Shown: positions 1 to 44,928 of the stretch, in pieces
Position numbering within the stretch: position 1 is the stretch's first letter
Layout: every line of letters begins with the position of its first letter
From: a virus
Virus record (IMG/VR): IMGVR_UViG_3300037248_000084
Span: 1 to 44,928 of that record
Strand: one strand, 5' to 3'
Length of the DNA stretch: 44,928 nucleotides
Notes under the pieces: model-generated
Seen by the model: the letters and a program-made list of their open reading frames with translations, nothing else
Database searches by the model: none
What the model was told of the DNA's origin: nothing
Position numbers and translations under genes: made by a program

Positions 1-127
1 TGATGCCGCGCGATTCCGTAGCTCTCCGATGGAGTAATCCGGCACGTCCTCCACTAGCCACTCGTTTTCCGGCAACATGTGCGAGTAGGTAACTGGCGCA
101 CCTGAGGTGTCCCAAATCAGCAGCCGC
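1..127. repeat. 127-bp terminal direct repeat, left copy (circular join)
   Basis: These 127 bases are identical to the last 127 bases of the window (44802-44928). A gene reads through the join in frame, so the molecule is circular, circularly permuted or terminally redundant, with 44,801 unique bp. The length of 127 equals a common maximum assembler k-mer, so it is more likely an assembly overlap than a true packaged terminal repeat. Confidence 0.95.
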
Positions 128-228
128 TTATTTTCGTACGTCTGTTTTCTGAAGCATTCGACCGCGCGCTTCGCCAGCTCGGGGCGGTCGCGGGTGAGCA
201 TGATCGCGCAAACGGTTGGTTCAGTCAT
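1..228 (-). CDS. GT2 glycosyltransferase, N-terminal part (crosses the circular join)
   Basis: This is the 5' part of a 264-aa GT-A fold glycosyltransferase that continues at 44801 down to 44235. The start ATG at 228 overlaps the stop of the preceding 38-aa gene as ATGA. The N-terminus, MTEPTVCAIMLTRDRPE followed by a helix and a strand ending in LLIWD, is the nucleotide-sugar-binding beginning of family 2 glycosyltransferases. It probably moves a sugar from a nucleotide donor to an unknown acceptor. It is the first member, in transcription order, of a glycosyltransferase/methyltransferase cassette between terminase and portal. Confidence 0.85.
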   Translation of the reverse strand, partial: MTEPTVCAIMLTRDRPELAKRAVECFRKQTYENKRLLIWDTSGAPVTYSHMLPENEWLVEDVPDYSIGELRNRAAS

Positions 229-341
229 CGCACCCACTTTCTCATTCGCTCTAAGCCAGCGTCGGTGAATGCGATGGTGGCTTTCTCAATGTCTTTGGTC
301 GCGAACCCCCGTTTAACTAAATCGTGCATGTCTATTTTCAT
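225..341 (-). CDS. Small hypothetical protein (38 aa)
   Basis: This reading frame starts MKIDMHDLVKRGFATKD and ends in a basic MRKWVR tail. It is chosen because its ATG overlaps the upstream stop as ATGA and its own stop overlaps the glycosyltransferase start as ATGA, the packing used throughout this genome. There is no Shine-Dalgarno sequence, so it would be translated by coupling. The same frame stays open to 578, but the upstream part is a shadow of the preceding small gene. No family was recognised. Confidence 0.6.
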   Translation of the reverse strand: MKIDMHDLVKRGFATKDIEKATIAFTDAGLERMRKWVR

Positions 342-496
342 GAAAGGGTTATTGAACCACGTCCGCCATGGTCCCTGGTTTCGGTCCACGGCGCGGAAAA
401 CTCCGCGATTACGATTGGCGCGCCATCGCCGCGCTTCGGACCAGTCGAGAAACTGAACCCGTGAAATGCTGCGCTGTTGAGTGTGATTCTTGGCAT
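338..496 (-). CDS. Small hypothetical protein (52 aa), first gene after the 604 operator/promoter
   Basis: The ATG at 496 is preceded by AAAGGA at good spacing, which favours it over an in-frame GTG at 556. The product begins MPRITLNSAAFHGFSFS and is rich in G, S and T; no domain is recognised. It is the first gene of the transcription unit that runs across the circular join into the glycosylation cassette and head genes, about 90 bp downstream of the operator-bearing promoter. Confidence 0.6.
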   Translation of the reverse strand: MPRITLNSAAFHGFSFSTGPKRGDGAPIVIAEFSAPWTETRDHGGRGSITLS

Positions 497-583
497 GGTT
501 TCCTTTAAGGGCTGCCGGGTCGCGTCCAACGCTTCCACGATGTCGCTGTACAGCACACCGCTTGGAGCAGCAGCCCACGAAAG

Positions 584-622: not shown

Positions 623-2050
623 CTACCACTCGCGATACGTTTCCGGTCTGCCGAACACCTGCGTCTCAACCTTCGGCACCAATCGAGCAAACGCCATGAT
701 GAGCGATTCCGCCCGGTCAGGCGATGAACTGCCGCGTGCTCGCGCTTCGTCCTTGTGCTCAATCTCGACTGTGCCTTTGGGCAGCTCCCGATACCGGATA
801 TCGCTCAACTGGGCTTTGGTGTCTTCGTCGGTGATTCCGCGAATGTCGCCGCCGCGCATCAGCTCTCTCACGTAAAAGTAGGCGTCCGCTTTCGCGTTCT
901 GATACTGCCGCGGATTCAGCGCCGCGTCACCGGCTTTGAACTCCCGCACGTCGTAGTCCTGCCGGGCGATGGCCGCCGCGAAGTGATAGCCGATTCCCAC
1001 GACGTCGGCCATGATGACGATGGGGATGTTTCCGAACCGGCCCTTCAGGCGTGACAGGAACATCAGCACGTCTTGAAACGGGTCGGGCTTGCTCCATGCC
1101 TCGAACGCCACAATGAACGGTCCAAAGCGTGCGGTGATGCTGGTTTCGTCTTCGCCGGGCCCCGCGATGTCCAACCCGATTTGCAGGAACCCCCGACCCT
1201 GCGACCGGATGTCGTTGAAGATATTCGTAAACTCGACTTCGTCGTAGGGAAGCGCGGCTTTTTCGATCCATGGTAGTTGAAAGACGCTGTCATCCGCCTG
1301 CGTCGGGAACTCCCCGAGAACGCGGGAGAGAAACCGCGGGTTGGTCGGACCCCACTTGTAGTACATTTCCTTGACCCACCTTCGCCTGGTGAGCCACGGA
1401 AACGGCGCGTAGTCGAGTTGGTCCTCGGGGAGCTGAAGAAGCGATTCGAGCGTTAAGCCTTCGAGGTTCGGTGTGTCGAAAGCTGAGATGGTGATGCACT
1501 CGACGCCTCCGCGACCCTTCGTGAAGTCGTCGAACACCGGACCGCTGGGCACGGTCGGGTTGCACAGACTGACTTCGCGCACGTCGCCGGCGCTTCGGAT
1601 TCCCTCAATGGCATCGTGAACGTCCGAAGCGATTCCGATCGCCTCGTCTTTGATGATGAGCACGCGCTTGCCGTGAAATCCCTGGGCGTTGACGCCCTTC
1701 GCCGAGCTGAACCCGAGCGCGTAGCACTTATCAGAGAGCTGCCATCCGGTCGTCGTTCGTTCGGGCAACCGCGCCTTGGCGGTTTCTTCGAGTGCCCGCA
1801 ACGCACCCTCGATTTCATTCCACAGAAGTTTGACCTGGCGAAGCGTCGGCGCGATCGTCAACACGATCGATTCTGCATCACTCAAGATTTCATACGGAAC
1901 ATCGCCGGCTACCGTGAAAGTTTTGCCAGACCCGTGGCAGCCCTTTACCGCCGTCCGGCGCTTGGTGGATATCGCCTCACAGATGCGGCGCTGTTTTGTC
2001 CACAGCTTTCGTCTGAGAAGCTTTTCCTGGAAGTCAACCGCGCTGAGCAC
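623..2050 (-). CDS. terL: Terminase large subunit
   Basis: This is a 475-aa packaging motor with an N-terminal ATPase and a C-terminal RNase H-like nuclease. The Walker A motif is GCHGSGKT at residues 37-44 and Walker B is VLIIKDE at 130-136. Nuclease acidic residues are D294 (IGLDIAGPG), D349 (IVIMADVVG) and D445 (SSPDRAES). It cuts concatemeric DNA and pumps it through the portal using ATP. The start codon is GTG and overlaps the stop of the small subunit (TAGTG), so translation is probably coupled. Its length is usual for a siphovirus terminase. No conserved gene follows before the operator at 604. Confidence 0.96.
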   Translation of the reverse strand: MLSAVDFQEKLLRRKLWTKQRRICEAISTKRRTAVKGCHGSGKTFTVAGDVPYEILSDAESIVLTIAPTLRQVKLLWNEIEGALRALEETAKARLPERTTTGWQLSDKCYALGFSSAKGVNAQGFHGKRVLIIKDEAIGIASDVHDAIEGIRSAGDVREVSLCNPTVPSGPVFDDFTKGRGGVECITISAFDTPNLEGLTLESLLQLPEDQLDYAPFPWLTRRRWVKEMYYKWGPTNPRFLSRVLGEFPTQADDSVFQLPWIEKAALPYDEVEFTNIFNDIRSQGRGFLQIGLDIAGPGEDETSITARFGPFIVAFEAWSKPDPFQDVLMFLSRLKGRFGNIPIVIMADVVGIGYHFAAAIARQDYDVREFKAGDAALNPRQYQNAKADAYFYVRELMRGGDIRGITDEDTKAQLSDIRYRELPKGTVEIEHKDEARARGSSSPDRAESLIMAFARLVPKVETQVFGRPETYREW

Positions 2051-4591: not shown

Positions 4592-5392
4592 TCACGGCTT
4601 GAACACCCTTGCAATGTGCTGAGCCAGAGGAAACGGTATCTTGGCTATTTGAGCGGAAGCGGCCTTCCAAGCGTTGAATTTGCTGCTCATCATCGGCATT
4701 CCATTCGGCGAGTCGCGCCACTCCTTTGCAAAGCCTTTCTCTTGGCCGCAATCCCGCTTGTTCACGTGCCCCACTGTTTTGGAAACGCCATCGCGTTCAT
4801 ATTTTGCGCCCGTCACATTTGCCAGAATACGTCCAGCGTGAACGCCTCCGCACTTCTTGATGTTTTGCGCCGCTGTCACATTGAACCCTTGCGGGATATA
4901 GCTCGACTTATCCGACCCGGACCAACTTATCCCAGGAACCTTCGCCGCGCACAGGGCGAACGGCATCAGCGCCGGAACATCGCCCCACAAATAGTAGGGC
5001 CCAAAGTGCCAAGCGGCTTTTCCTACCCATTTCTGAGCGCCGCGGACATTCTCAACTACCAGCGGGACCTGGGCCTCTTGCGCGATCCTAAAACAAGCTT
5101 CGAAGAGATAATTATCCGGTGGTGGAAGTGTTCGGGCCCTGGTCCACGGCATTGCGCGATAGCTGTACGCCTGGCACGGTGGCGATGCCACAATCACCGC
5201 CGCGTCCCGGAACTGCGAGCCGTGGAGCGTCAGAACGTCTTGCAGCACCAATTGGCCGGGATAACCGCCAGTCCCGTAATCGTGCCGCTCGATGTCGAAC
5301 CCGATAACCCGATACCCTTCGGCGAGAAACCCATCAGCCCAACCCCCTAGGCCGCAAAACAGGTCGATGCACAGCGGCTTTACTTCGGGCAT
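4592..5392 (-). CDS. C5-cytosine DNA methyltransferase
   Basis: This 266-aa protein has the C5 methyltransferase motifs in order: motif I IDLFCGLGGWADGF (residues 9-22, SAM binding), the catalytic SPPCQAYS with Cys73 (motif IV), and VENVRG around 113-118 (motif VI). The C-terminus holds IAKIPFPLAQHIARV (motifs IX/X region). It methylates cytosine at C5 in an unknown target and no partner restriction enzyme is nearby, so it is a solitary, probably anti-restriction methyltransferase. It overlaps the upstream nuclease gene by 13 bp. The target-recognition region is short. Confidence 0.9.
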   Translation of the reverse strand: MPEVKPLCIDLFCGLGGWADGFLAEGYRVIGFDIERHDYGTGGYPGQLVLQDVLTLHGSQFRDAAVIVASPPCQAYSYRAMPWTRARTLPPPDNYLFEACFRIAQEAQVPLVVENVRGAQKWVGKAAWHFGPYYLWGDVPALMPFALCAAKVPGISWSGSDKSSYIPQGFNVTAAQNIKKCGGVHAGRILANVTGAKYERDGVSKTVGHVNKRDCGQEKGFAKEWRDSPNGMPMMSSKFNAWKAASAQIAKIPFPLAQHIARVFKP

Positions 5393-15990: not shown

Positions 15991-16138
15991 CGTACAATCT
16001 CACTCTTTCAGTGTCGCCGTTTTCTAAATCAAATTCAACAAAGGCGAACGGTCGCCCGGTGCTTTCGTCGGTAATCGGTACGTCTCCGTAGGTGCGTTGT
16101 ATCTGCTGAAGCTGTCGGATGAGTGCCGAGATTCTCAT
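15926..16138 (-). CDS. SELI-family small protein, copy A (70 aa)
   Basis: The N-terminus MRISALIRQLQQIQRTYGDV matches two other small proteins in this genome (36732-36875 and 44044-44238) that share K/RxSxLIxxLxxxxxxxGDxxV followed by beta strands. Here the C-terminus is longer and hydrophilic. The start overlaps the previous stop as ATGA. The role is unknown; the triplication suggests a modular partner-binding protein. Confidence 0.6.
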   Translation of the reverse strand: MRISALIRQLQQIQRTYGDVPITDESTGRPFAFVEFDLENGDTERVRLYDDKPAGPHPGSTRETDSQHGR

Positions 16139-16407
16139 CCCGCCACCCTCAACAGATACGCCACGGTCGCACGTTTGGCGTCAACATCTGGAACCGCAAC
16201 GCCAGCTTGAAACGCTACCGTCCGCCACTGGTCGTCCGTCATCTTCGATGAGATGCGCGCCAGCTCACCAATCGTTACCGACTGGCTTGAGCAAGCCGCT
16301 CGAAGGATTGTCGCCGCCATTCTGCGACCCTTCTTCGCCTGATAGCGATTCGGACACAGTGAAGGAAACCCGCCACGAGGAACCACGCTAAGATGTGCAT
16401 TTTTCAT
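16135..16407 (-). CDS. Small hypothetical protein (90 aa)
   Basis: The ATG at 16407 overlaps the stop of the 38-aa membrane-type gene (ATGA) and follows GGAG. The product begins MKNAHLSVVPRGGFPSLCPN; the middle (SVTIGELARISSKMTDDQWR) looks like a helix-turn-helix. It could be a small DNA-binding protein but lacks decisive features. Confidence 0.55.
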   Translation of the reverse strand: MKNAHLSVVPRGGFPSLCPNRYQAKKGRRMAATILRAACSSQSVTIGELARISSKMTDDQWRTVAFQAGVAVPDVDAKRATVAYLLRVAG

Positions 16408-31454: not shown

Positions 31455-32831
31455 TTACACGCCCGCGCCGGTCGAGGCAACCGTCGAGCGTCCGTCAATC
31501 TGAGTTCCGCCGAGCACCAGGATTCCTTTGTAGTCCTGGTTCATGGTCCAGAAGTCGCCGAGCATCGGGTCCACGCCGCCGCCGACCCGCATGGTGTTCG
31601 GAACCTTCTGGAAAAGCTGCGGTGTCTCGAAGCCGGCCAACTGCCCGAGTTCGAGAGACGGGCGATTCTGCGCGCGCGGGTCGTAGGTCAGATACCACTG
31701 GGTGTCCTTGATTCCCGAAGTGGTGGTGACCAGAGGAAGGTACTTGTCGCAGATCGGAACCACGCCGGTCATGGGCCAATTCGGAGAATCGAGCCACTGG
31801 GTCGGGAAGCCTTGCACGTTCGCCGAGCCGCCAGTGTTTGAAAGCTGGATATGGAGCGCCTTCGCCATCATCAGCGCGGTGTTTTCGAGCGCCGGTCCGT
31901 GAACGAGGTACAGCGTCCCATCGAAGGTGATGGGCTGCCCGTCGATGTCGAGCATCTTCGAGAGAACCGTTTTCGCGTCGAGCAAACCCTGCCACGAAAG
32001 CGGAGGATTCGCCGAGCTTGCGCCGTTCGCGACGATGACTTGATTCGCGAAAGTGCTGTTGTACAGCGTGCTGTTCGGCCCGGTCGCCGAGCTGTAAAGC
32101 CCGGTGATGAATTGATAGATGGTGCGATTTCCCGAGATCGCGAGACGCTGCACCATGTCCTGGAAGATTCCCAGGTCATCATTCACGAGCGCGCGCCAGT
32201 TCACGGACATCGCCCCTTGATAAAGCTGGGGCTGATACGTGACCCGCTGGGTTGAGCCTTCGACTTCACGGGCGCTCTGTTGCATCGAGCGTTCCGTGGG
32301 CGGTTCGCCGGCTCCGTGAGGGATGAGCGACGGGAAGTCGTTCTGCATCCGGCTGAACGGCTTGGTTGCGCCGTCCATCGAATACCGGGCCACCAGACGG
32401 AAGTCCCGCAAGGTGTGCGGCTTCACCAATGGCATGTTGGTGATGGGCGCGGCGCTGTAATAGCCGTAGAGCATCCGGTCCAGGATGTCGACGGTCAACG
32501 CCGAGTAGTCCGAGTACGACATCGTTTCCCGCAACCCCACGGTTTCGGTGCGGAAGATGCCGGGATAGTTCTCGCGCAGGTGCTCGACGTAAATCGGGTG
32601 CGTCGGGTTCATCGCCTGCTTGAACAGGAACGGGTCAATCCGTCCCTCTATGGCGTCGGCCAGGAGCCGCGCGGCTTCGAGAACCCGGCGACGATGCCGC
32701 GGGTCATTCGAACGGCTCCGCGGCACGTAGTCTGGGTTCGCCTCGCGCATCCGGTCGAGGACCGGCATATCGGCGCTGATGGCGCCGAGGCTTTCCATTC
32801 CAGGTCCGGGTGTGACTTCGAGTGTTCGCAT
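31455..32831 (-). CDS. Major capsid protein, HK97 fold (458 aa)
   Basis: The gene has AAGGAG upstream. The sequence pattern IYEH/EHLRENYPGIFRTETV, ALTVDILDRMLYGYYSA and VARYSMDGATKPFSRMQ in the N-terminal half, and PTQWLDSPNWPMTGVVPICD then YLTYDPRAQNRPSLELGQLA in the C-terminal half, is that of large HK97-fold capsid proteins related to Mu gpT/Lin-type heads. It forms the icosahedral shell. It follows the decoration protein and protease/scaffold genes as usual. Confidence 0.88.
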   Translation of the reverse strand: MRTLEVTPGPGMESLGAISADMPVLDRMREANPDYVPRSRSNDPRHRRRVLEAARLLADAIEGRIDPFLFKQAMNPTHPIYVEHLRENYPGIFRTETVGLRETMSYSDYSALTVDILDRMLYGYYSAAPITNMPLVKPHTLRDFRLVARYSMDGATKPFSRMQNDFPSLIPHGAGEPPTERSMQQSAREVEGSTQRVTYQPQLYQGAMSVNWRALVNDDLGIFQDMVQRLAISGNRTIYQFITGLYSSATGPNSTLYNSTFANQVIVANGASSANPPLSWQGLLDAKTVLSKMLDIDGQPITFDGTLYLVHGPALENTALMMAKALHIQLSNTGGSANVQGFPTQWLDSPNWPMTGVVPICDKYLPLVTTTSGIKDTQWYLTYDPRAQNRPSLELGQLAGFETPQLFQKVPNTMRVGGGVDPMLGDFWTMNQDYKGILVLGGTQIDGRSTVASTGAGV

Positions 32832-36093: not shown

Positions 36094-36735
36094 CTACACC
36101 GATTCGAGTTGGCAAAGCAAGCCGCCGTCCTCAAGCTCAGACACCACGCGAAGATTCACCGTAACGGATGGGTCGTGCGGGTCGGGCAGCGCGAGCGCCT
36201 CGACAAGTTCCGCGGCCGCTTCTTCCACTTCGGCCTCTTCCTGCTTCAGCACCAGCTTCGGGTCTACCAACCAGGCGAGTGTGTTGGTGCTTTTGATTCC
36301 TTCTTCCGGCTTCGCCTTGAAGCGTACGTGCGCGATCGCGCCCCACTCGAAGCGAACCTCGGGAACGCCGGCGTCAACGCCGAGCAGCCACATGAGTAAA
36401 GTGTTTATCAGCGGGTCATGTCCGACCACCAGCACTTCCTTGGACTGCTGCGCGAGCCGTTCGATTTCCTTCCACGCTTCTTGTGGGTTGCCGTCCGGTT
36501 CCAAACATCGGGTATCGGCGACGTGCGAACCGAGAATCCCGGCCATGATTTGCGCGGTGTGGAGTCCGCGAACGAACGGCGAGCAGATGACGATATCGAC
36601 ACGGCCGTTTTCGTTGCGGAACCATTCGCCCATCGCCTGCGCTTGCTTGACGCCTTCGGGTTTCAAGTCGCGCGTTGCGTCCATCGGATGGCCGTGGACC
36701 GGTTCGGCATGACGCATGAGCCACAGCTTTTTCAT
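36094..36735 (-). CDS. SixA-like histidine phosphatase fused to a C-terminal domain (213 aa)
   Basis: Residues 1-135 are a histidine-phosphatase fold: LMRHAEP with catalytic His9 and Arg8, SPFVRGLHTA with Arg56, and VVGHDP with His106. It is closest to SixA, which removes phosphate from phosphohistidine in bacterial phosphorelays and phosphotransferase systems. Residues 140-213 add an acidic coiled coil (KQEEAEVEEAAAELVEAL) and a beta-rich end. It lies between a SELI-family gene and head genes, an unusual place. A role against host signalling is inference. Confidence 0.78.
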   Translation of the reverse strand: MKKLWLMRHAEPVHGHPMDATRDLKPEGVKQAQAMGEWFRNENGRVDIVICSPFVRGLHTAQIMAGILGSHVADTRCLEPDGNPQEAWKEIERLAQQSKEVLVVGHDPLINTLLMWLLGVDAGVPEVRFEWGAIAHVRFKAKPEEGIKSTNTLAWLVDPKLVLKQEEAEVEEAAAELVEALALPDPHDPSVTVNLRVVSELEDGGLLCQLESV

Positions 36736-36875
36736 TCGACGATGACTCCCTCGTCGCTATCGAAGCGTACGCTAGTCACCCGACAATACCGCCCGTCGTC
36801 ATCCGTTTTCACCACTACATCGCCGTGCTCTTCGAGCATCTCCGCAAGTCGTGCGATGAGTTCTGAGATTTTCAC
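36732..36875 (-). CDS. SELI-family small protein, copy B (47 aa)
   Basis: The GTG at 36875 overlaps the KTSC gene stop as GTGA and gives MKISELIARLAEMLEEHGDV, the same start pattern as the copies at 15926-16138 and 44044-44238. The strand RVTSVRFDSDEGVIVE matches the end of copy C. The longer frame upstream is a shadow. Confidence 0.65.
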   Translation of the reverse strand: MKISELIARLAEMLEEHGDVVVKTDDDGRYCRVTSVRFDSDEGVIVE

Positions 36876-37303: not shown

Positions 37304-37536
37304 TACGAAATCGTCAAAGTCTCGCCACCGCTGATGACGATGCTGCTGTTGGGATTGATCGACGCCGGTTGCGCGGCCGCCGCAACGTTGACGGTGATGA
37401 GTTTGGGGTTAGAGACGACCACGCCGTGCGAACCCGCCTCGGCTATGATGTCCTGGAAACCCTGCGTGCCTTGAAGCAGCTTAATCGTTTTCCCGTTGAT
37501 GGTGACCGGGACCTTCTTCTCGTTTGTGAACGGCAT
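37303..37536 (-). CDS. Small beta-grasp-like hypothetical protein (77 aa)
   Basis: The ATG at 37536 follows GGAG within the 3' end of the portal gene (56-bp overlap). MPFTNEKKVPVTINGKTIKL, a helix with GFQDIIAEAGSHG, and a beta C-terminus suggest a ubiquitin-like or MoaD-like beta-grasp, but it does not end in Gly-Gly. It may be a virion accessory. The fold is a guess from the strand-helix-strand pattern. Confidence 0.5.
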   Translation of the reverse strand: MPFTNEKKVPVTINGKTIKLLQGTQGFQDIIAEAGSHGVVVSNPKLITVNVAAAAQPASINPNSSIVISGGETLTIS

Positions 37537-39547
37537 TGCGTTTCTCCTTGAGCCGTAGGATAGCACCCAACAGCCGGTTTACTGCTTCGGTGGTCTTGGC
37601 GGGCGCCGCAGGAGCAGGCGCGGCTGGGGCGTTCGGGTCGTGCGGTGGTGCCGGAGGATTCGGCGGGTGAACCGCTGCCGGTGCTGCTGGTGGCTTCGGC
37701 GGCGGGAGCGTGCGATTCGGGTCGTAACCTGGTTTCCCTGGCTTGCCGAAAATCTTCTTCGGATACTGCTTGTCCAAGACGTCTTGGTAGTTCTCAAGCC
37801 CCAGCTCTTCGGCGAGCGCCATCACGCCGGTCTTTTCGTCGATGCCGACCACCTGGCCTTGCGTGTTGCCGAGCGTCATCGCTTCCGCGATCGCGGTCAC
37901 GTTCGCGGGCATATCGCCTTCGCGGATGGCCGGGAAAATTACCTTGATTTGAATCTGGTCGTCGGGCTGCGATTGCGAAGCTTCCCTGACGTAAACGCGC
38001 TGGCCGTTCGGCTTCGTGGTTCGGGCCATCTCGACGACCTTCTTGTCTTTGGATTCGCGCAGCTTTCCGTTCGTAGCTCCTTGGCTAACCTGAAGCACGT
38101 AGGTGTAAATCGTGACGAGCGTCTCGCGCCAACGCTCCTGCTTTTCCATCATCGCGAGTTCGGTAGGCCGATCCAAGGTTTGCGCGGTCGACAGATTCGA
38201 GGTTTCCATGTCGGCCAAGAACGTCGGCGGAATCTCGAACACACACGCCACCATATTCCGGTACTCCGCCACGTCCTTCGGGTCACGAATCGCGCCACGG
38301 GTATCGAAGGCCGCGAGTGTGGTTCCAGGTCCTGATCCAAATGTCGCGCCAGAAACCGCCGGCGGGTTCATGTCGTACAGATTCGATGTCGGCCCGACTG
38401 TCGTTCCGAGCGCGGTCTTCGCGCCTTCAAGGGCCTGTTGGCCGCCCTTGGTCGTCAGCGTCATCGCGATTTGCGAAAGCGCCAACCGCGTCGTGAGGTC
38501 GGCTTGCAGCATCCGCGTTCCGTTGCGCGCCCATTCGAGAGCCGCGTAAACCTTCGGTGTGTCAAAGAGCCACTTCCCAACACCGACACCGCCTTTCTGC
38601 ATCAAGACCGGGCAGTCGGTCATGACTTTGACGCCACCGATTTCGTCGAGCAGCCCTCCGGGATTGTCCATCGCGTATTTCAGCGCCGGGTAGTAAGCGT
38701 CCTGGTCGTTCACCGTCGAAACCATTCCGCTGCTCGCTACGAATTTCCTCGAGGTCCACTTCCGGCGATAGTACTGGTGGCAGTCTGTGTCGTCGGGGTC
38801 GGTGATGATTTCCTGGATTTCCGTCGCGTCGATTGTCCGCACATCCACTTCGCCGCTGTGGATGTCGTCGGCGAAAAAGCAGTAGAACACTTGCCCGTCA
38901 TACATGAGCTGCTTGTGAAGGTCCGAGAGCGCCGCTTGGCCGAGGATTTTCTTATTCCGCTGCGCGAAGTCCGCGATCACGTCGTTAGCGTCGTCGTCTT
39001 CAGACGACACCTCGACGCCGCGCCCGAACACGTACGAAGCCGTTACGTTGATGCCCCGCTGAATCCAGGGATGCTTGATGAACTGCAACCGCGAAATCAA
39101 AATGAGCTGCTGAATCCCCCAGCGTGAGAACTCGAGCCAGCTCAGGTTTACCTCGCGGCGCCATTCCACGTTCTGCAACGCCAGCTCGATATCGCCGGTT
39201 GCCCCCTGCGCAATAATCGGCATGGCTTCGCGGACAGCGATTCCGCCAGGCCGTGGGATGTTCTGGTCGATGCGCTGCGAAGCGTAGGTGATAAGCCGGT
39301 CGGTTTCTTCGAGGACCTTATCGGGAACGCGCCACGGGCCCGCGCCGGCCATCGCGCGCGCTTCGATGAGTTCCGCTACTCGCTCCCATTGTTCCCTGCG
39401 GGATTGTTCACGCGCGGACGCGTCGAACTGGTCAGCGACGAGGCGTTTCAGAATGCGGTTTTCCGCTAAGACTTCCGGCGTGTTATCGATTTTGAGGGAG
39501 AGTCGGCGGGCGATATTCGCGAACAGTCGAGCGAACCAGCGGCGCAT
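37481..39547 (-). CDS. Portal protein (688 aa)
   Basis: The gene encodes a portal with RRWFARLFANIARRL at the start, then QFIKHPWIQRGINVTASYVF, VFGRGVEVS, DVRTIDATEIQEIITDPDDT, and a C-terminal Pro-rich tail. AEYRNMVACVFEIPPTFLAD and LDRPTELAMMEKQERWRETL are portal-like blocks. It forms the dodecameric DNA channel and terminase dock. An in-frame GTG 39 bases upstream (39586) is an alternative start. The Pro/Ala tail is longer than in most portals. Confidence 0.85.
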   Translation of the reverse strand: MRRWFARLFANIARRLSLKIDNTPEVLAENRILKRLVADQFDASAREQSRREQWERVAELIEARAMAGAGPWRVPDKVLEETDRLITYASQRIDQNIPRPGGIAVREAMPIIAQGATGDIELALQNVEWRREVNLSWLEFSRWGIQQLILISRLQFIKHPWIQRGINVTASYVFGRGVEVSSEDDDANDVIADFAQRNKKILGQAALSDLHKQLMYDGQVFYCFFADDIHSGEVDVRTIDATEIQEIITDPDDTDCHQYYRRKWTSRKFVASSGMVSTVNDQDAYYPALKYAMDNPGGLLDEIGGVKVMTDCPVLMQKGGVGVGKWLFDTPKVYAALEWARNGTRMLQADLTTRLALSQIAMTLTTKGGQQALEGAKTALGTTVGPTSNLYDMNPPAVSGATFGSGPGTTLAAFDTRGAIRDPKDVAEYRNMVACVFEIPPTFLADMETSNLSTAQTLDRPTELAMMEKQERWRETLVTIYTYVLQVSQGATNGKLRESKDKKVVEMARTTKPNGQRVYVREASQSQPDDQIQIKVIFPAIREGDMPANVTAIAEAMTLGNTQGQVVGIDEKTGVMALAEELGLENYQDVLDKQYPKKIFGKPGKPGYDPNRTLPPPKPPAAPAAVHPPNPPAPPHDPNAPAAPAPAAPAKTTEAVNRLLGAILRLKEKRNAVHKREEGPGHHQREND

Positions 39548-39650
39548 TGCGGGAATGATACCATGTCCTGGTCCCGTCGCGGCCACACCACGCCAAGGAA
39601 AGACACAGGAGTAGGAATAGCGGCCAGATGGTCAGCCGCAAGGGTTTCAT
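39483..39650 (-). CDS. 55-aa membrane-type protein overlapping the portal start
   Basis: The ATG at 39650 overlaps the glycosyltransferase stop as ATGA and encodes MKPLRLTIWPLFLLLCLSLA, a strong hydrophobic segment followed by WCGRDGTRTWYHSRN. It overlaps the 5' end of the portal gene by 65 bases in another frame. It may be a coupled leader, a spacer or a real envelope protein. Confidence 0.45.
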   Translation of the reverse strand: MKPLRLTIWPLFLLLCLSLAWCGRDGTRTWYHSRNAPLVRSTVREYRPPTLPQNR

Positions 39651-40525
39651 ACCACCCCGAAAAGGTCCAGCCCTTCAAACAGTTTCTTGCCGTAGAGCAT
39701 CACGAGCCTTTGACACTCGCGCTCCTGCCACGACGTTGCGTGCAGGTCGAGATACTGGAGCAGGTTTTCATAGCCAGCCCACCACGTTTCAGGAACGTCT
39801 TTGAACTGCCACGTCGCGGGCGTTCCGTAGCTCGGCTGGTCGCGATCGCCGTGAATCGCCCAACTGTACATGGTGTTGATTTCCTGCACCGATTTCTCGG
39901 GCCAGCGGATGCGCTCGACCATTTTGTAGTGGGCGTGCTTTGAAACCAACCGCCGCTCGCTCGCGCCCCACAGGTGCATCACACCGCCTGCGCCTTGGTT
40001 GATGGGTCGATACTGCTGGAACGCGATTCCCCTCGGTTCACGCGCGTGGAATCGGTCACCGCCCCAATGCAAACGTGGGTCATCCTTGAACGCCACAGAG
40101 AACCAGCGGTTACCCCAAATGCCGTTTGCGTGATAGGAGCGGATTCCGGCGCGAAGGTTGTAGCCGGGTAGCGAGAGCATCCATTCGTTTCGCTTCCAGT
40201 CCTCCTTGAAGTTTCCGTCTAGTTTCAGATTCCCGGTCAGCACCTCATCAGCGTCCACCAGCGCGATGTGGGTTGCTTTCTTGGCTCGCGCGAATTCCAA
40301 AAGGTGTTGGCGGTGGGCCATCTCGGGCCACGATTCATCCGCCAAGGAAACTACGTGAACACGTCCGGGAAACTCTTCTTGCAACTGGCCCAGGATATCG
40401 CCGGTGCGGTCGGTTGAGGAGTGGTTCAGGATACAAAGCTCATCGCACCATCGCAGCGCCACGCGCGCTGAAAGCCCAAGGCACCACGCCTCATTTCGAA
40501 CCGGCATCGTCGCTACCAGCTTCAT
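39647..40525 (-). CDS. GT2-like glycosyltransferase (292 aa)
   Basis: The N-terminus MKLVATMPVRNEAWCLGLSA and the metal site HIALVDADEVLTG are typical of GT2 enzymes that act on a nucleotide-sugar donor. The middle contains RWFSVAFKDDPRLHWGGDRF, a conserved acceptor-side block. No signal peptide or membrane segment is seen. It is the last glycosyltransferase before the portal gene. Confidence 0.82.
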   Translation of the reverse strand: MKLVATMPVRNEAWCLGLSARVALRWCDELCILNHSSTDRTGDILGQLQEEFPGRVHVVSLADESWPEMAHRQHLLEFARAKKATHIALVDADEVLTGNLKLDGNFKEDWKRNEWMLSLPGYNLRAGIRSYHANGIWGNRWFSVAFKDDPRLHWGGDRFHAREPRGIAFQQYRPINQGAGGVMHLWGASERRLVSKHAHYKMVERIRWPEKSVQEINTMYSWAIHGDRDQPSYGTPATWQFKDVPETWWAGYENLLQYLDLHATSWQERECQRLVMLYGKKLFEGLDLFGVV

Positions 40526-40713
40526 CTGGTCAGGTTCCTCACTAGCGTATTCAGCTTCATTGCAAACACGTGGTCGAGGTGCTCACGAGTGTTTCCGTTG
40601 TCAATGAACGCTTGCCTGACCATCTCTGCTTCCATCGGTGAGAAGTCTCGGCATGAGCAATCGCGGCCCTCGTAAAACTTCCCGCGAATCCAGGTGCACA
40701 TGTCCGTGAACAT
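40522..40713 (-). CDS. Small hypothetical protein (63 aa)
   Basis: MFTDMCTWIRGKFYEGRDCS with three cysteines, then EMVRQAFIDNGNTREHLDHV. It is wedged between two glycosyltransferase genes with 1-4 base overlaps, so it may be a cofactor or adaptor of the cassette. No family was recognised. Confidence 0.6.
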   Translation of the reverse strand: MFTDMCTWIRGKFYEGRDCSCRDFSPMEAEMVRQAFIDNGNTREHLDHVFAMKLNTLVRNLTR

Positions 40714-41525
40714 CAGTAACCTCCGTCCGCTACCAGAATGGTGTTTTCTTTTTCCCCGCCGCGATACGCGAACACGTCAGGCGGTGCGGTGAGTTTCATT
40801 TCCAGCCTCCACGCAATCACCGAGGCAGCGGTCTGGTCGTGCCGATGACCCAGTGTCGTCGGTGGGCCGCACGGCGCCGCGCCCGCTTTCCCGACATTCT
40901 CCATGCGGTTGGAGTTCCACCACGGCCCCTTGAACGCGCCGGCGTCGGCCATGCGGATGTACTGCGCCAGGAAGTCTCGGCCTTTGTCGTGGTCGAGTGA
41001 GATCCCGAACGCGGTCGCCACGACGTGTTTGATTTTCGCGTTAGCGGCGCGCGCCTCATCCCAGCATTCAGAACAGCCCGGCATAAAGCAGGCAGGAAAG
41101 AGCGCCGGATACGCGCTGTCGGCGGTCCATTGCGCGTTCGACCATCCGTTGTCTGAGAACCAGTAACCGTCGCGCTCAATCCGTTCCCACAAAGGTTCGA
41201 GCGGCGCTATCGGGACAATCGAAGCATCGCACCACAGAAGCGTTGTCGGGCGCGCACGGTGGGTGTAGGCGCTCTGAAGCGCGTAGGCTTTGAACGCGTA
41301 CGGATTCGCCTCATACCAGATGTCAGGCGGAACGTAGCTCCCGCTTACGTGCGGGTGCTTTTCGTTTCGTGAGCGCGCGGTGTGCGGTGGCGAGTTTGGC
41401 GGGAGCTGGTCAGCCCACGAAATAAAGTGCTCGCCGAATCCGCCGAACTTCTTCAACGCTTCCGCGAGACGCTTCTGTCCTCGAACGTACGGCCCGGTCG
41501 CGACGTTGAACACCGCGCGGGTCAT
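40713..41525 (-). CDS. GT-A-type glycosyltransferase-like protein (270 aa)
   Basis: PTTLLWCDASIVPIAPLEPL has the Asp-containing donor-site motif of GT-A enzymes with a CDAS signature. The later ALFPACFMPGCSECWDEARA and FLAQYIRMADAGAFKGPWW are compatible with a glycosyltransferase acceptor region. The classic DxD is not certain. It lies between two methyltransferases and the other glycosyltransferases. Confidence 0.65.
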   Translation of the reverse strand: MTRAVFNVATGPYVRGQKRLAEALKKFGGFGEHFISWADQLPPNSPPHTARSRNEKHPHVSGSYVPPDIWYEANPYAFKAYALQSAYTHRARPTTLLWCDASIVPIAPLEPLWERIERDGYWFSDNGWSNAQWTADSAYPALFPACFMPGCSECWDEARAANAKIKHVVATAFGISLDHDKGRDFLAQYIRMADAGAFKGPWWNSNRMENVGKAGAAPCGPPTTLGHRHDQTAASVIAWRLEMKLTAPPDVFAYRGGEKENTILVADGGY

Positions 41526-42202
41526 TTACGCACCAACACGAGGTTTTGCCCGTTCCCGTACGTGACGTTGTAGTGCAGCGGAGTCGCCGCCGCAATCAGC
41601 TCGTTATCGCGTCCGTCTGTCTCGACGCACACGCATGTTGGCTGAAGGCCAATCTTCAGCATCCGCAGGAACAGCTCGGCGCTTTGCCCTTCTACATCGA
41701 AGTTGATAAAATCGAACCCGCCGAAACGGTTCGTGATTTCCTCGAGCGTGACGACCGGGCAAAGCAGGTGTCCGTAGAATCCCCCGACCGCTGCCCACTT
41801 TCCATAGCTCGCGTCGTCGCTCGTCGAGAGCGCGTCATCGGTAACGGCGATTTGCAGGAAGCCTGGCTCCAGCCCGACCGCGGCTTGAATCAGCGTCAAG
41901 TCTTCGTCGAAGCCATAACGTTTCGCGCCGCACTTAGCGCACTCGCGCTGCTTCCGCTCTCCGTAGCGTTCATGCTCGCGCTGGTCGACGCCGACCGCGC
42001 ATTTGGTGCAACATCGGAGCAGCTCAATCATCGGCCCTGGCGCGGGGTCGATCATCACGCCGCTCCAACCCAGTTCCACCAACGCGCGAGTGTTTGAAAA
42101 GGTGATGGGGTCCCAGCATCCAATATCCAAGAACTTGCGCGACATCGAACCTTTGAGCGCCGCAAGGATGTGCTTTTCTTCGTCGAACTGCGAGTAGCTC
42201 AT
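41522..42202 (-). CDS. FkbM-type SAM methyltransferase with inserted Cys-rich knuckle (226 aa)
   Basis: The ATG at 42202 overlaps the upstream stop as ATGA. SAM motif I is KFLDIGCWDPITFS and motif II SGVMIDPAPGP, and later GFDFINFDVEGQSAELFLRM and ETDGRDNELI are FkbM-like. Between the SAM motifs, residues about 58-90 contain CCTKC and CAKCG, an extra zinc knuckle not typical of the family. It probably methylates a sugar hydroxyl, fitting the glycosylation cassette. Confidence 0.75.
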   Translation of the reverse strand: MSYSQFDEEKHILAALKGSMSRKFLDIGCWDPITFSNTRALVELGWSGVMIDPAPGPMIELLRCCTKCAVGVDQREHERYGERKQRECAKCGAKRYGFDEDLTLIQAAVGLEPGFLQIAVTDDALSTSDDASYGKWAAVGGFYGHLLCPVVTLEEITNRFGGFDFINFDVEGQSAELFLRMLKIGLQPTCVCVETDGRDNELIAAATPLHYNVTYGNGQNLVLVRK

Positions 42203-42945
42203 TTGCACCTCGTAAAATCGAAATCCTTCAATCGCCCGTCCAGCATCGCGTTTTTGACAATCGGATCCGGTACATGGTCGGGCGGTGTGAAGTCGCCGCG
42301 CCAGCACAACGCTATCATGTGCGGCGTGAAGTACACCCGGCAATGGAACCCTTGGGCCATGAGGTACTGAACCGCTTCCCGAACGGGCATTCCAGTGAAG
42401 TCGTGAAAGATGATGACGCCGGTTTCCGCGAGATGCTTCGCTGCGTTGATGGCGTCTTCTAATGGCTTGCCGGGTTCGTGGTCGCCATCGATGCAAAATA
42501 GGTCCGCGCCGAGGCAACCCATCGCGTCGGCTTGTTTGAACAACGCATTGCTCGTCTCGTCGAAGATTCCCTCTCTGTTGTGGAACCCATGGGTGTTGCC
42601 GAGAAGCCGATGCCCAAACGCTTTATTCCCGGCTGGATAAATTGGGTCAACAGGAATGCAACTACAGCCGGCCGCCATGATGTGCATTGTGGTCCAGCCG
42701 GTGTGCGCCCCGATGTCGACGCCGCGCTTGAACGCGCCAAACATCACCACGTTGTAGAGAATCGCCGCTTCGTCATGGGTCCAGAAACCGCACTTCTTGT
42801 ACAGCCCAAACACCGGGTCGTCATCGGCTTTGTCGCCCCAATCGCTCGGTACGTCGTGGCCGAAGCTGTGCGGCATGGGCCGTGAGACAAGATGCTTGAA
42901 GTGCGGCGTGAGGTCGGGCGCGGTGAGGTTGCTGCGGTAAATCAT
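42199..42945 (-). CDS. Class I SAM methyltransferase (248 aa)
   Basis: GVDIGAHTGWTTMHIMAAG is the SAM-binding motif I, CIPVDPIYPAG motif II and ADLFCIDGDHEPGKPLEDA motif IV, in the pattern of the Methyltransf_24 type (D-x-D-H). VIIFHDFTG follows. The substrate is unknown; the neighbours suggest sugar or sugar-peptide methylation. The start ATG overlaps the preceding gene as ATGA. Confidence 0.78.
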   Translation of the reverse strand: MIYRSNLTAPDLTPHFKHLVSRPMPHSFGHDVPSDWGDKADDDPVFGLYKKCGFWTHDEAAILYNVVMFGAFKRGVDIGAHTGWTTMHIMAAGCSCIPVDPIYPAGNKAFGHRLLGNTHGFHNREGIFDETSNALFKQADAMGCLGADLFCIDGDHEPGKPLEDAINAAKHLAETGVIIFHDFTGMPVREAVQYLMAQGFHCRVYFTPHMIALCWRGDFTPPDHVPDPIVKNAMLDGRLKDFDFTRCK

Positions 42946-43217
42946 TTCTTCTCGACTCCGTATATTGGGTCGTCTGGGTCACACCCAGTACTGGAGCCGT
43001 CCGAGTAGAGCACAAACAATCGCGGCTGCCCATTCGCGCGATGACCTCGCCGAATCACAGCGGGACAGCCTCTACGGACATTCGCAGGCGTGCCTGGTCG
43101 TTCTCCTGGTGCAAACGAGTTGAAGCACTGCACTGCGTCTCCGTCATGTAAGACAACCCCTTTGCGGTCCACACCGATTACAACAGTTGGATCAATTTGT
43201 TCAAAATCCCAGCTCAT
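42942..43217 (-). CDS. Small hypothetical protein (91 aa)
   Basis: The product, MSWDFEQIDPTVVIGVDRKG onward, reads as a small beta-rich protein with a Ser/Asp end (LFVLYSDGSSTGCDPDD). It is co-translated with the methyltransferase and glycosyltransferase on each side by 4-base overlaps. No family was recognised. Confidence 0.55.
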   Translation of the reverse strand: MSWDFEQIDPTVVIGVDRKGVVLHDGDAVQCFNSFAPGERPGTPANVRRGCPAVIRRGHRANGQPRLFVLYSDGSSTGCDPDDPIYGVEKK

Positions 43218-44047
43218 AGCGGCTCACTTCCCGGAAACCCTTCGCGCTTCCGTTTCTCGAATATCGCTTTCGCTTCGTCCCACACCTTCGGGTCGTTGGC
43301 TTTTTCAAGGAACGCCGGCATGTCTTTTCTGTGCCCCGTAGCATGACCTGGTTTCGGGCGGCCCCAGTGCTGGTGAATCTGTGTCAGGTCCGGGCGCTGC
43401 CACAGCACACCCAGCTTAGTCGCTACGGCTTGCAGCTCTTCGTCTACGTACATGTGAAAGTACTCGGGATAGAGCGGCCCGCGGCCTTGATTGACCCGTC
43501 GCGCGAACTCGCGGCCTATCCACGCCGAGCCGCACACCCGGTCTATGTAGGCAGAGCGGACTCTCGGGTTTGGGTTGGTCGGGTCTTCGCCCCAGCGATC
43601 GCCGGTGGGTTGCATGACACCGTAGGTTGAATCTTCCCATCCGTGGTCGCCTGTCGGAAGGTTGCGTTCGCTGAAGTAGTCCCGACACTGCGCCGCGATT
43701 TCTTCCGCGCTGTGGTCTGGATCCGGGAAAACGTCGTCACCCCCGATGATGAACCACTCGGCGTCGGCTGTTCCGCAAAGCAGTTTCAGTTCATCTTCTT
43801 CATTGAGTTTCGGTAGATCTGGGTCAGTTCCGAGCAGCGTAGAGATGAGCTTGTTGACTGCATTCGCGTAACCGGGGTACGGACCCGCCGCGATTTGGCA
43901 CATATCGACATCGAGATTCTCGCCGTCTTCCATTCGGTCCCGGTCGCGCCAAACCGCAATCTTATACCCGCGCTCTCGCCATGCCTTGGCCCATTCTGCG
44001 ACTACTTCAGGAGGCCGGGCGCTTGGAACTGTGACCCAGACACTCAT
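43214..44047 (-). CDS. GT-A-type glycosyltransferase-like protein (277 aa)
   Basis: The metal/donor site is visible as AEWFIIGGDDVFPDPDH. The N-terminal MSVWVTVPSARPPEVVAEWA and acceptor-side GREFARRVNQGRGPLYPEYF followed by MYVDEELQAVATKLG, with a C-terminal HQHWGRPK, are consistent with a GT2-like family. It has no export signal. It overlaps its neighbours by 4 bases, so it is translated with them. Confidence 0.75.
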   Translation of the reverse strand: MSVWVTVPSARPPEVVAEWAKAWRERGYKIAVWRDRDRMEDGENLDVDMCQIAAGPYPGYANAVNKLISTLLGTDPDLPKLNEEDELKLLCGTADAEWFIIGGDDVFPDPDHSAEEIAAQCRDYFSERNLPTGDHGWEDSTYGVMQPTGDRWGEDPTNPNPRVRSAYIDRVCGSAWIGREFARRVNQGRGPLYPEYFHMYVDEELQAVATKLGVLWQRPDLTQIHQHWGRPKPGHATGHRKDMPAFLEKANDPKVWDEAKAIFEKRKREGFPGSEPL

Positions 44048-44238
44048 GCGGGGTAATCCGATATCAGAATTGTGGTCACGCGCTTCTCTAGTCCTGGTAC
44101 GACTTTGTCGCTGTCGACGAAGCGTACGCCGCGCACGCTCGCTGTTGCAAATTGACCAACTGTTGTAATCCCAACGTTCTGGTCGCCGTGTTCAGCTACA
44201 ATAGCCTGAAGCTTCGTGATTATCTCGCTCGCCTTCAT
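44044..44238 (-). CDS. SELI-family small protein, copy C (64 aa)
   Basis: The ATG at 44238 overlaps the glycosyltransferase stop as ATGA and begins MKASEIITKLQAIVAEHGDQ, matching the copies at 15926-16138 and 36732-36875. The C-terminal VRGVRFVDSDKV and TTILISD are the strand pair seen in copy B. It is embedded in the glycosylation cassette. Confidence 0.65.
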   Translation of the reverse strand: MKASEIITKLQAIVAEHGDQNVGITTVGQFATASVRGVRFVDSDKVVPGLEKRVTTILISDYPA

Positions 44239-44928
44239 TTCAGAATCTCCCTCACGCGATTGTCCCACTCGGGTACTCGTTTCCATGAGCCATTGGACTC
44301 TTCGATATTGTACTTGGTGAAGTTGGCTCCGTGGATTCGCGCTATCATGCGCGGCGCCCATAGGTCGGCCATGTCTGGGTTGCGCTCGCTTAAATAGAGC
44401 GCGTTGTGAAATCCCGGCGCGTTCTTCCAACGCTCAGGATTGTCAACACTCTGAAACACCTCACCAATCGCGCCGATGGCCGCGACCTTCAGCCCTTGGA
44501 TGAAGTCCCAGTCCTCGCCGGTCGATTGGGAATTGTTCGGGAGCTTCAGATTGAACGGCTTTCGCTCCCACGTCTTTCTCCAATAGCAAAGCGATGTTCC
44601 GAGTGTGGGTTTTGGGACTGAGTAGCTGTAGAGCCACGCTTCTTGGCCCATGCCTGCATTGCTGCGCGCGAAAAGCATTTCGTTGTAACCCACGCAGTCT
44701 GCTCCGCTGGCCTGCAAGAACGCGACTTGTTCCGTGATGCGGTTCGGGTGACTCCAGTCGTCGTCGTCCCAGTGAACCAGGACTTCAACATTGAGCGCCC
44801 ATGATGCCGCGCGATTCCGTAGCTCTCCGATGGAGTAATCCGGCACGTCCTCCACTAGCCACTCGTTTTCCGGCAACATGTGCGAGTAGGTAACTGGCGC
44901 ACCTGAGGTGTCCCAAATCAGCAGCCGC
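44235..44928 (-). CDS. GT2 glycosyltransferase, main part (264 aa when joined to 1-228)
   Basis: When joined to bases 1-228 this gives a complete 264-aa protein. The metal/nucleotide-sugar site is visible as VLVHWDDDDWSHPNR, the D-rich motif that closes the donor half of GT2 enzymes, and an acceptor-side segment containing GEDWDFIQG supplies the likely catalytic acid/base region. No signal peptide or membrane segment is seen, so it should act in the infected cell cytoplasm. Its stop overlaps the start of a small SELI-family gene (ATGA). The acceptor could be virion protein, modified DNA or a host surface sugar; the sequence does not decide. Confidence 0.85.
   Translation of the reverse strand, partial: RLLIWDTSGAPVTYSHMLPENEWLVEDVPDYSIGELRNRAASWALNVEVLVHWDDDDWSHPNRITEQVAFLQASGADCVGYNEMLFARSNAGMGQEAWLYSYSVPKPTLGTSLCYWRKTWERKPFNLKLPNNSQSTGEDWDFIQGLKVAAIGAIGEVFQSVDNPERWKNAPGFHNALYLSERNPDMADLWAPRMIARIHGANFTKYNIEESNGSWKRVPEWDNRVREILK
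44802..44928. repeat. 127-bp terminal direct repeat, right copy
   Basis: This is the exact second copy of bases 1-127. It lies inside the glycosyltransferase gene that crosses the join and should be counted once when the genome is closed. Confidence 0.95.

Follow-up and report, generated by a model that had tools for sequence, protein, structure and literature searches.

The window examined here, the whole 44,928 bp of IMG/VR record IMGVR_UViG_3300037248_000084, carries between its large terminase (TerL) and portal genes a cassette that codes for four putative glycosyltransferases (GT1 to GT4), two predicted S-adenosylmethionine (SAM) methyltransferases and five tiny open reading frames (ORFs). 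With a probability of about 0.68, these genes form a locus for synthesis of a virion glycan within the late structural operon, and the set most likely gives the virion a variable coat of sugars. The virus itself is a soil virus of bacteria, probably of Acidobacteria. Virion glycosylation is favoured because of the head-gene placement, the predicted solubility of the enzymes and the presence of sugar-methylating, sugar-sulfating and nucleotide-sugar enzymes in cassettes of this type, and a virion protein also because of a precedent in cluster O mycobacteriophages. The kind of locus is already known from Corndog-type phages and chloroviruses. What is new is the combination of conserved bookend genes, a reassorting content and a spread across apparently non-homologous head modules of uncultured phages.

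The two ends of the record share an exact repeat of 127 bp (1-127 = 44802-44928). The window is therefore a circular contig of 44,801 bp whose repeat is an assembly overlap and whose join is artificial. The GT1 frame crosses this join unbroken (228..1/44801..44235), starts at an ATG at position 228 and codes for 264 amino acids (aa). The cassette and flanking genes are all found on the minus strand, the chain reading 5'->3' orfA1, orfA2, GT1, orfB, GT2, orfC, MT1, FkbM-like gene, GT3, orfD and GT4, with TerL upstream and the portal gene downstream. Neighbouring frames share 4 nt, except at the GT3/orfD junction where 1 nt is shared. No promoter-like site was seen on the minus strand within the cassette and terminator-like sites are rarer there than in shuffled sequence. 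The original prediction, made from the DNA letters alone, of one continuous chain that crosses the circular join to position 228 and is located between terminase and portal is borne out by these overlaps, the end repeat and the identity of the flanks. Its range of 39647-44928 starts correctly at the 3' end of GT4 but stops short, the set running on past 44928 to 228. A chance arrangement is excluded because the same order recurs in dozens of independent contigs. The features of the cassette and its flanks are:

623..2050, minus strand: large terminase TerL, upstream flank (phrog_2, E=4e-21; homologues in 9 loci)
338..556, minus strand: orfA1, 72 aa, start of the chain; open frame with a 4-nt overlap with orfA2
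225..341, minus strand: orfA2, 38 aa; 4-nt overlap with GT1
1..228, minus strand: GT1, 5' part (the gene crosses the join in a continuous frame)
44235..44928, minus strand: GT1, 3' part, putative GT-A glycosyltransferase, first bookend (PF00535, E=8.8e-6)
44044..44238, minus strand: orfB, 64 aa; weak PHROGs matches of unknown function
43214..44047, minus strand: GT2, predicted GT-A-fold glycosyltransferase without Pfam model (model with a predicted local distance difference test score, pLDDT, of 89; Foldseek matches in the PDB and among viral proteins)
42942..43217, minus strand: orfC, 91 aa; 4-nt overlaps on both sides, no family match
42199..42945, minus strand: MT1, putative SAM methyltransferase (Methyltransf_24, PF13578, E=2.2e-9)
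41522..42202, minus strand: FkbM-like putative SAM O-methyltransferase (PF05050 and TIGR01444, both sub-threshold)
40713..41525, minus strand: GT3, predicted GT-A-fold glycosyltransferase without Pfam model (model pLDDT 91; Foldseek)
40522..40713, minus strand: orfD, 63 aa; 1- and 4-nt overlaps
39647..40525, minus strand: GT4, putative GT-A glycosyltransferase, last bookend (PF13704, E=6.4e-8)
37481..39586, minus strand: portal protein, downstream flank (phrog_10963, E=4.8e-45)

The four GT-A-like enzymes that had been announced are recovered, GT1 and GT4 by Pfam and GT2 and GT3, which gave no Pfam match, by AlphaFold models built from alignments of relatives and compared to the PDB with Foldseek; the GT-A-like assignment of the latter two is thus a model prediction. 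Heparosan/chondroitin synthase and SpsA are among the PDB entries matched by the GT1 profile, and the acidic motif DDD (D88, D90, D91) of the protein is invariant. GT2 features the motifs GGDD.xPD and GVMQPTGDRW, with D104 and D105 invariant in the alignment. GT3 has the motifs WxDA and GHRHDQ and a single invariant acidic residue, D100 (WCDAS); its best Foldseek match is the GT6 enzyme BoGT6a. Structures of domain 1 of chlorovirus PBCV-1 protein A064R are found among the fold matches of both GT2 and GT3, at an identity of about 9-13%. GT4 has a D-x-D-type motif with D91, D93 and E94 invariant, and the only PDB match of its profile at E<=0.01 is GmaR (PDB 22ao; 6.7e-8), which covers positions 4-128 of 288 and leaves the carboxyl-terminal half of GT4 outside the match. 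Both SAM methyltransferases are supported, although the FkbM type proposed for one of them falls just under the Pfam gathering cut-off for PF05050 (22.3 versus 22.7 bits) and only the designation FkbM-like is retained. A match of this protein to a giant 'grappling hook' protein was short and local and was disregarded. Relatives of MT1 (family f14) turn up repeatedly in cassettes of other loci. The cassette proteins scanned have no transmembrane-like stretch (maximum 19-residue hydropathy <=1.43) and include no membrane-embedded protein of the GtrA/GtrB type, the enzymes being predicted as soluble.

Searches with the GT2 protein as query yielded 59 viral loci. Clustering of ORFs among the 60 loci that include the window placed GT4 in 50, GT1 in 47, the FkbM-like protein in 34 and GT3 in 28 of them. 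The outer gene order is fixed across the GT2-found loci while their middle is variable, with TylF, FkbM, SDR, GFO/IDH and sulfotransferase genes. Across the portal loci as a whole, GT1 comes first and GT4 last in 37 of 38; the sole exception, L109 (same contig as L052), has the cassette before TerL and GT1 behind GT4. Closely related phages can differ by one recognised gene of the set: L004 and L005, whose portals are 87% identical, differ in the FkbM-like gene only, and L018 and L082 (81%) in TylF only.

Two architectures predominate among the cassette loci. In type A, that of the window, the order is TerL - cassette - portal. In type B it is TerL - portal - protease - capsid - cassette - connector, all type B genes being confirmed by Pfam except the connector, which is named by position. 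Markers of both types were never found together in one fetched contig, and no BLAST similarity was seen between type A and type B portals or between type A and type B terminases. The two appear by these comparisons to be non-homologous head modules. In four loci with an 'empty' capsid-connector slot (L038, L043, L048 and L051), the cassette follows the connector instead. A third architecture (L040, L054, L057) places it between head-completion and tail-tube genes, neighbours identified from sequence and family links only; MptE-like proteins (f39) are encoded immediately upstream of the cassette in these three loci. The gene-order comparison called for by the original prediction finds the cassette kept within head or head-tail genes, and unrelated positions were not seen. 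Used as single-sequence queries, neither the window portal nor GT3 found a match among viral contigs, alignments being needed. A collection of 50,697 records of cultured phages contains nothing that matches GT1 or GT2, and no description of the conserved locus was found in the open-licence literature.

Since loci found via GT2 necessarily contain GT2, an unbiased set was assembled by searches with the type A portal and the type B capsid followed by profile annotation, from which contigs already found via GT2 and near-copies were removed. Among the 16 type A contigs showing TerL, GT1 is present between TerL and portal in all 16 and GT4 in 12, while GT2 and a recognised methyltransferase are each found in 8. 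The connector is visible in 20 type B contigs with closer capsids, and in these the capsid-connector interval contains GT1 in 18 and GT4 in 7; the 14 contigs with distantly related capsids have no cassette gene. As the family covered by the GT1 profile is a wide one of GT2 type, 'GT1' in distant contigs is to be read as GT1-like. Because GT1 is the only recognised gene in the slot of some type B contigs (L166 and L161), a single transferase may be the ancestral state. The capsid-connector slot of L177 is 'empty', yet a glycosyltransferase-like ORF, judged as such by sequence, comes right after its connector.

A slot that merely receives cargo or auxiliary genes without common function, as a generic hotspot of insertion, would agree with a capsid-to-connector distance that spans ~0.3 to 7.6 kb and with the HNH endonucleases found there now and then. 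Its content, however, is overwhelmingly glycan-related and its first and last genes are constant, which makes this explanation improbable. Glycos_transf_2 was recognised by Pfam in 40 of 135 slot ORFs, taken from loci mostly without a GT2-protein cassette, versus none of 118 control ORFs located downstream in the same and similar contigs (Fisher p = 6e-13). The slot ORFs also matched several methyltransferase models, DegT aminotransferase, RmlD, epimerase, cupin, GT11 and acetyltransferase, and the named control ORFs are mostly connector, tail and capsid proteins.

The A/B type has to switch 10 times on the GT2 tree and 14 times on the GT4 tree, and in the latter the branches with strong support by themselves demand at least 6 changes of the B label. 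These quick trees, read without a direction of transfer, require repeated movement of the cassette between head modules. Bacterial O-antigen and capsule loci likewise have constant flanks within which GT, methyl- and nucleotide-sugar genes are reassorted. By analogy to O-antigen loci, the constant bookends and reassorted middle of the cassette suggest selection for altering the structure of a surface sugar. The likeness is one of analogy only, the cassette being phage-borne, set within head genes and devoid of a recognised polymerase or flippase.

The mechanism proposed for a virion glycan is as follows. While particles assemble in the cytoplasm, GT1 or the GmaR-like GT4 would link an initial sugar to Ser/Thr in a protein of the head or tail, for which the major capsid protein is the likeliest candidate. 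GmaR itself is a flagellin O-GlcNAc transferase that modifies its protein directly in the cytoplasm. The remaining GT-A enzymes would lengthen the chain, each with a sugar from the host nucleotide-sugar pool; some relatives encode additional enzymes that make sugars. MT1 and the FkbM-like enzyme would O-methylate sugar hydroxyls and so cap the chain, as their families suggest. Such a coat might serve the stability of the particle, its adhesion or its shielding from recognition.

Cluster O mycobacteriophages provide a precedent. One O-methyltransferase gene and three GT genes separate their portal gene from that of the protease (PMC4351075), a cassette whose products are reported to act on both the capsid and the tail tube (PMC11600133), with glycans located at carboxyl termini (PMC12619734). 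A paired GT/methyltransferase set at head genes, singled out as noteworthy in the original prediction, has this precedent, and the novelty rests in its spread, reassortment and bookends. Corndog gp35-38 and Firecracker gp33-36 resemble the window in having contiguous GTs and an O-methyltransferase inside the head-gene operon, but their slot is portal-protease instead of TerL-portal or capsid-connector. The Firecracker GTs gp34-36 match no cassette profile at E<=1, and its O-methyltransferase matches the TylF family of some relatives (2.6e-17) but neither of the two methyltransferases of the window. Both are actinobacteriophages, which the cassette phages, as far as their hosts are known, are not. 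In PBCV-1, soluble GTs and O-methyltransferases encoded by the virus provide the capsid protein with a glycan that ends in methylated sugar (PMC9614988). A064R and A061L differ from the cassette enzymes in belonging to a eukaryotic virus, in their fused domains and in acting on an N-linked glycan of the major capsid protein. The only matches to GT4 in the cultured collection (~23% identity, E ~1e-12) are from phages of the Prochlorococcus phage P-SSM2 type and one marine virus; P-SSM2 is a large myophage without a GT1 or GT2 match.

Carboxyl termini of capsid proteins were inspected because those of cluster O phages are reported to carry the glycans. The capsid gene of the window is:

31455..32831, minus strand: major capsid protein (phrog_4523/133 head proteins), with carboxyl terminus ...DGRSTVASTGAGV

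This protein is a candidate acceptor of the glycan. Type A capsids, that of the window included, mostly end in a Ser/Thr/Gly-rich tail; a cassette-free type A contrast is absent. In type B, 35 of the 38 capsids whose gene adjoins GT1 end in a [STNQ][ST]P tail, for example GTFTTSP, against 3 of 30 without an adjoining GT1. Two of the three GT1-bearing exceptions (L160 and L164) show an apparent frame difference relative to the near-identical L161. On the tree, this association provides only 3-4 independent contrasts of which about two agree, and it is for this reason a lead and not a result.

Several observations weigh against a coat on the virion. A sign test on so few contrasts cannot reach significance. 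The capsid tail may be a recombination scar, because it adjoins the insertion site next to the capsid stop codon, and the same tail is found on small satellite-like elements without a recognised cassette gene. Tail-tube carboxyl termini have no shared [ST]SP-like motif. The GmaR match spans the nucleotide-binding half of GT4 only, and most glycan-gene families of the variable middle occur in host-surface pathways too. The late-operon location also fits a late modification of the host envelope, and the evidence for a coat is genomic throughout. Among the satellite-like elements, L175, L176, L178, L182 and L187 have a type B capsid gene followed directly by a protease-like gene and keep the [ST]SP tail, so that satellites able to form capsids are a possible identity for them. 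In L176 the capsid-protease pair is present twice, in inverted copies separated by unrelated ORFs.

Three targets had been put forward for the enzymes, virion proteins, host glycans and DNA, and the first is the best supported. That the enzymes instead act on glycans of the host surface, in lysogens or at a late stage of infection, and so block re-adsorption or superinfection as in serotype-converting phages, is possible but rather unlikely. Loci for surface polysaccharides commonly contain transferases of the GT2 family as well as acetyl- and methyltransferases, relatives of the GT1 profile include heparosan and chondroitin synthases, and a lysogen exists in Acidobacteriaceae bacterium KBS 96. 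However, the cassette has no membrane-anchored or flippase-type protein, unlike GtrABC systems, its genes lie within the late structural operon and not in a lysogeny or moron region, and a host-glycan role would leave the constant position beside head genes unexplained. The KBS 96 prophage has, near its far end and on the opposite strand, an acyltransferase-like gene that resembles a conversion gene more.

GT2 relatives are present in three GTDB genome records, those of KBS 96, of a Candidatus Sulfotelmatobacter metagenome-assembled genome (MAG) and of a Planctomycetota MAG; two Acidobacteriota genomes carry the cassette. The KBS 96 copy (L062) is a prophage that occupies scaffold positions 128534-171540, bounded by repeats at 128.53 kb (in tRNA-Phe) and 171.52 kb. 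KBS 96 is the only real match in ~400 genomes of its class, a second one (E=5.6e-4, partial) not being counted. Acidobacteriota are likely hosts of some cassette phages, given these genome-record matches and the prophage. Acidobacteriota phage isolates have been published, namely the Tunturi phages (PMC11924767).

Glycosylation or further modification of phage DNA bases (hypermodification) is very unlikely. The gene that could speak for it is at 4592-5392 (minus strand) and codes for a C5-cytosine methylase-like protein whose PF00145 match is confined to the amino-terminal part. Partial PF00145 matches of this sort recur among relatives, and the KBS 96 prophage protein has a start nearly identical to that of the window. 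Pathways combining C5-methylase, TET and glycosyltransferase are known (Pyle 2024, cited in PMC12619734). A C5 methylase is nevertheless found in only 11 of 31 records (the window and 30 relatives), and none of the 31 has a thymidylate-synthase-type gene (PF00303), which control genomes matched. Tet_JBP (PF12851) gave no match in the 31 records, nor did it in the control genomes. DNA modification also fits poorly with a place among head genes and with enzymes that methylate sugars or make nucleotide sugars.

The tiny overlapping proteins noticed from the start number five. None has a homologue in the fetched relative loci, indicating that they are lineage-specific. OrfB is paralogous to ORFs near 36735-36875 and 16016-16156 on the minus strand (tblastn within the window), a scattered family of three tiny ORFs that share MKxSELIxxL...EHGD. 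A gene of the histidine-phosphatase superfamily (PF00300) is located a few genes past the portal, at 36094-36735 on the minus strand; among the 118 control ORFs that follow the head genes of relatives, 5 match PF00300 as well.

A wider proposal is tentative, and would have less than an even chance of holding in full: that many uncultured soil phages, some at least infecting Acidobacteriota, carry a dedicated virion serotype locus with constant end transferases and a reassorting middle, exchanged between phages with non-homologous head modules, for which the acceptor in one architecture is a short carboxyl-terminal [Ser/Thr]-Ser-Pro tail of the major capsid protein whose gains and losses go along with those of the adjacent GT1. 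The question is made testable by the KBS 96 prophage and by this capsid tail. When soil viruses encode glycosyltransferases and sugar methyltransferases, these are often classed as auxiliary metabolic genes, which would be wrong for a common class of them if they are virion-decoration genes. A coat locus swapped among unrelated phages would mean that, in soil, the sugars on the surface of phage particles vary under selection.

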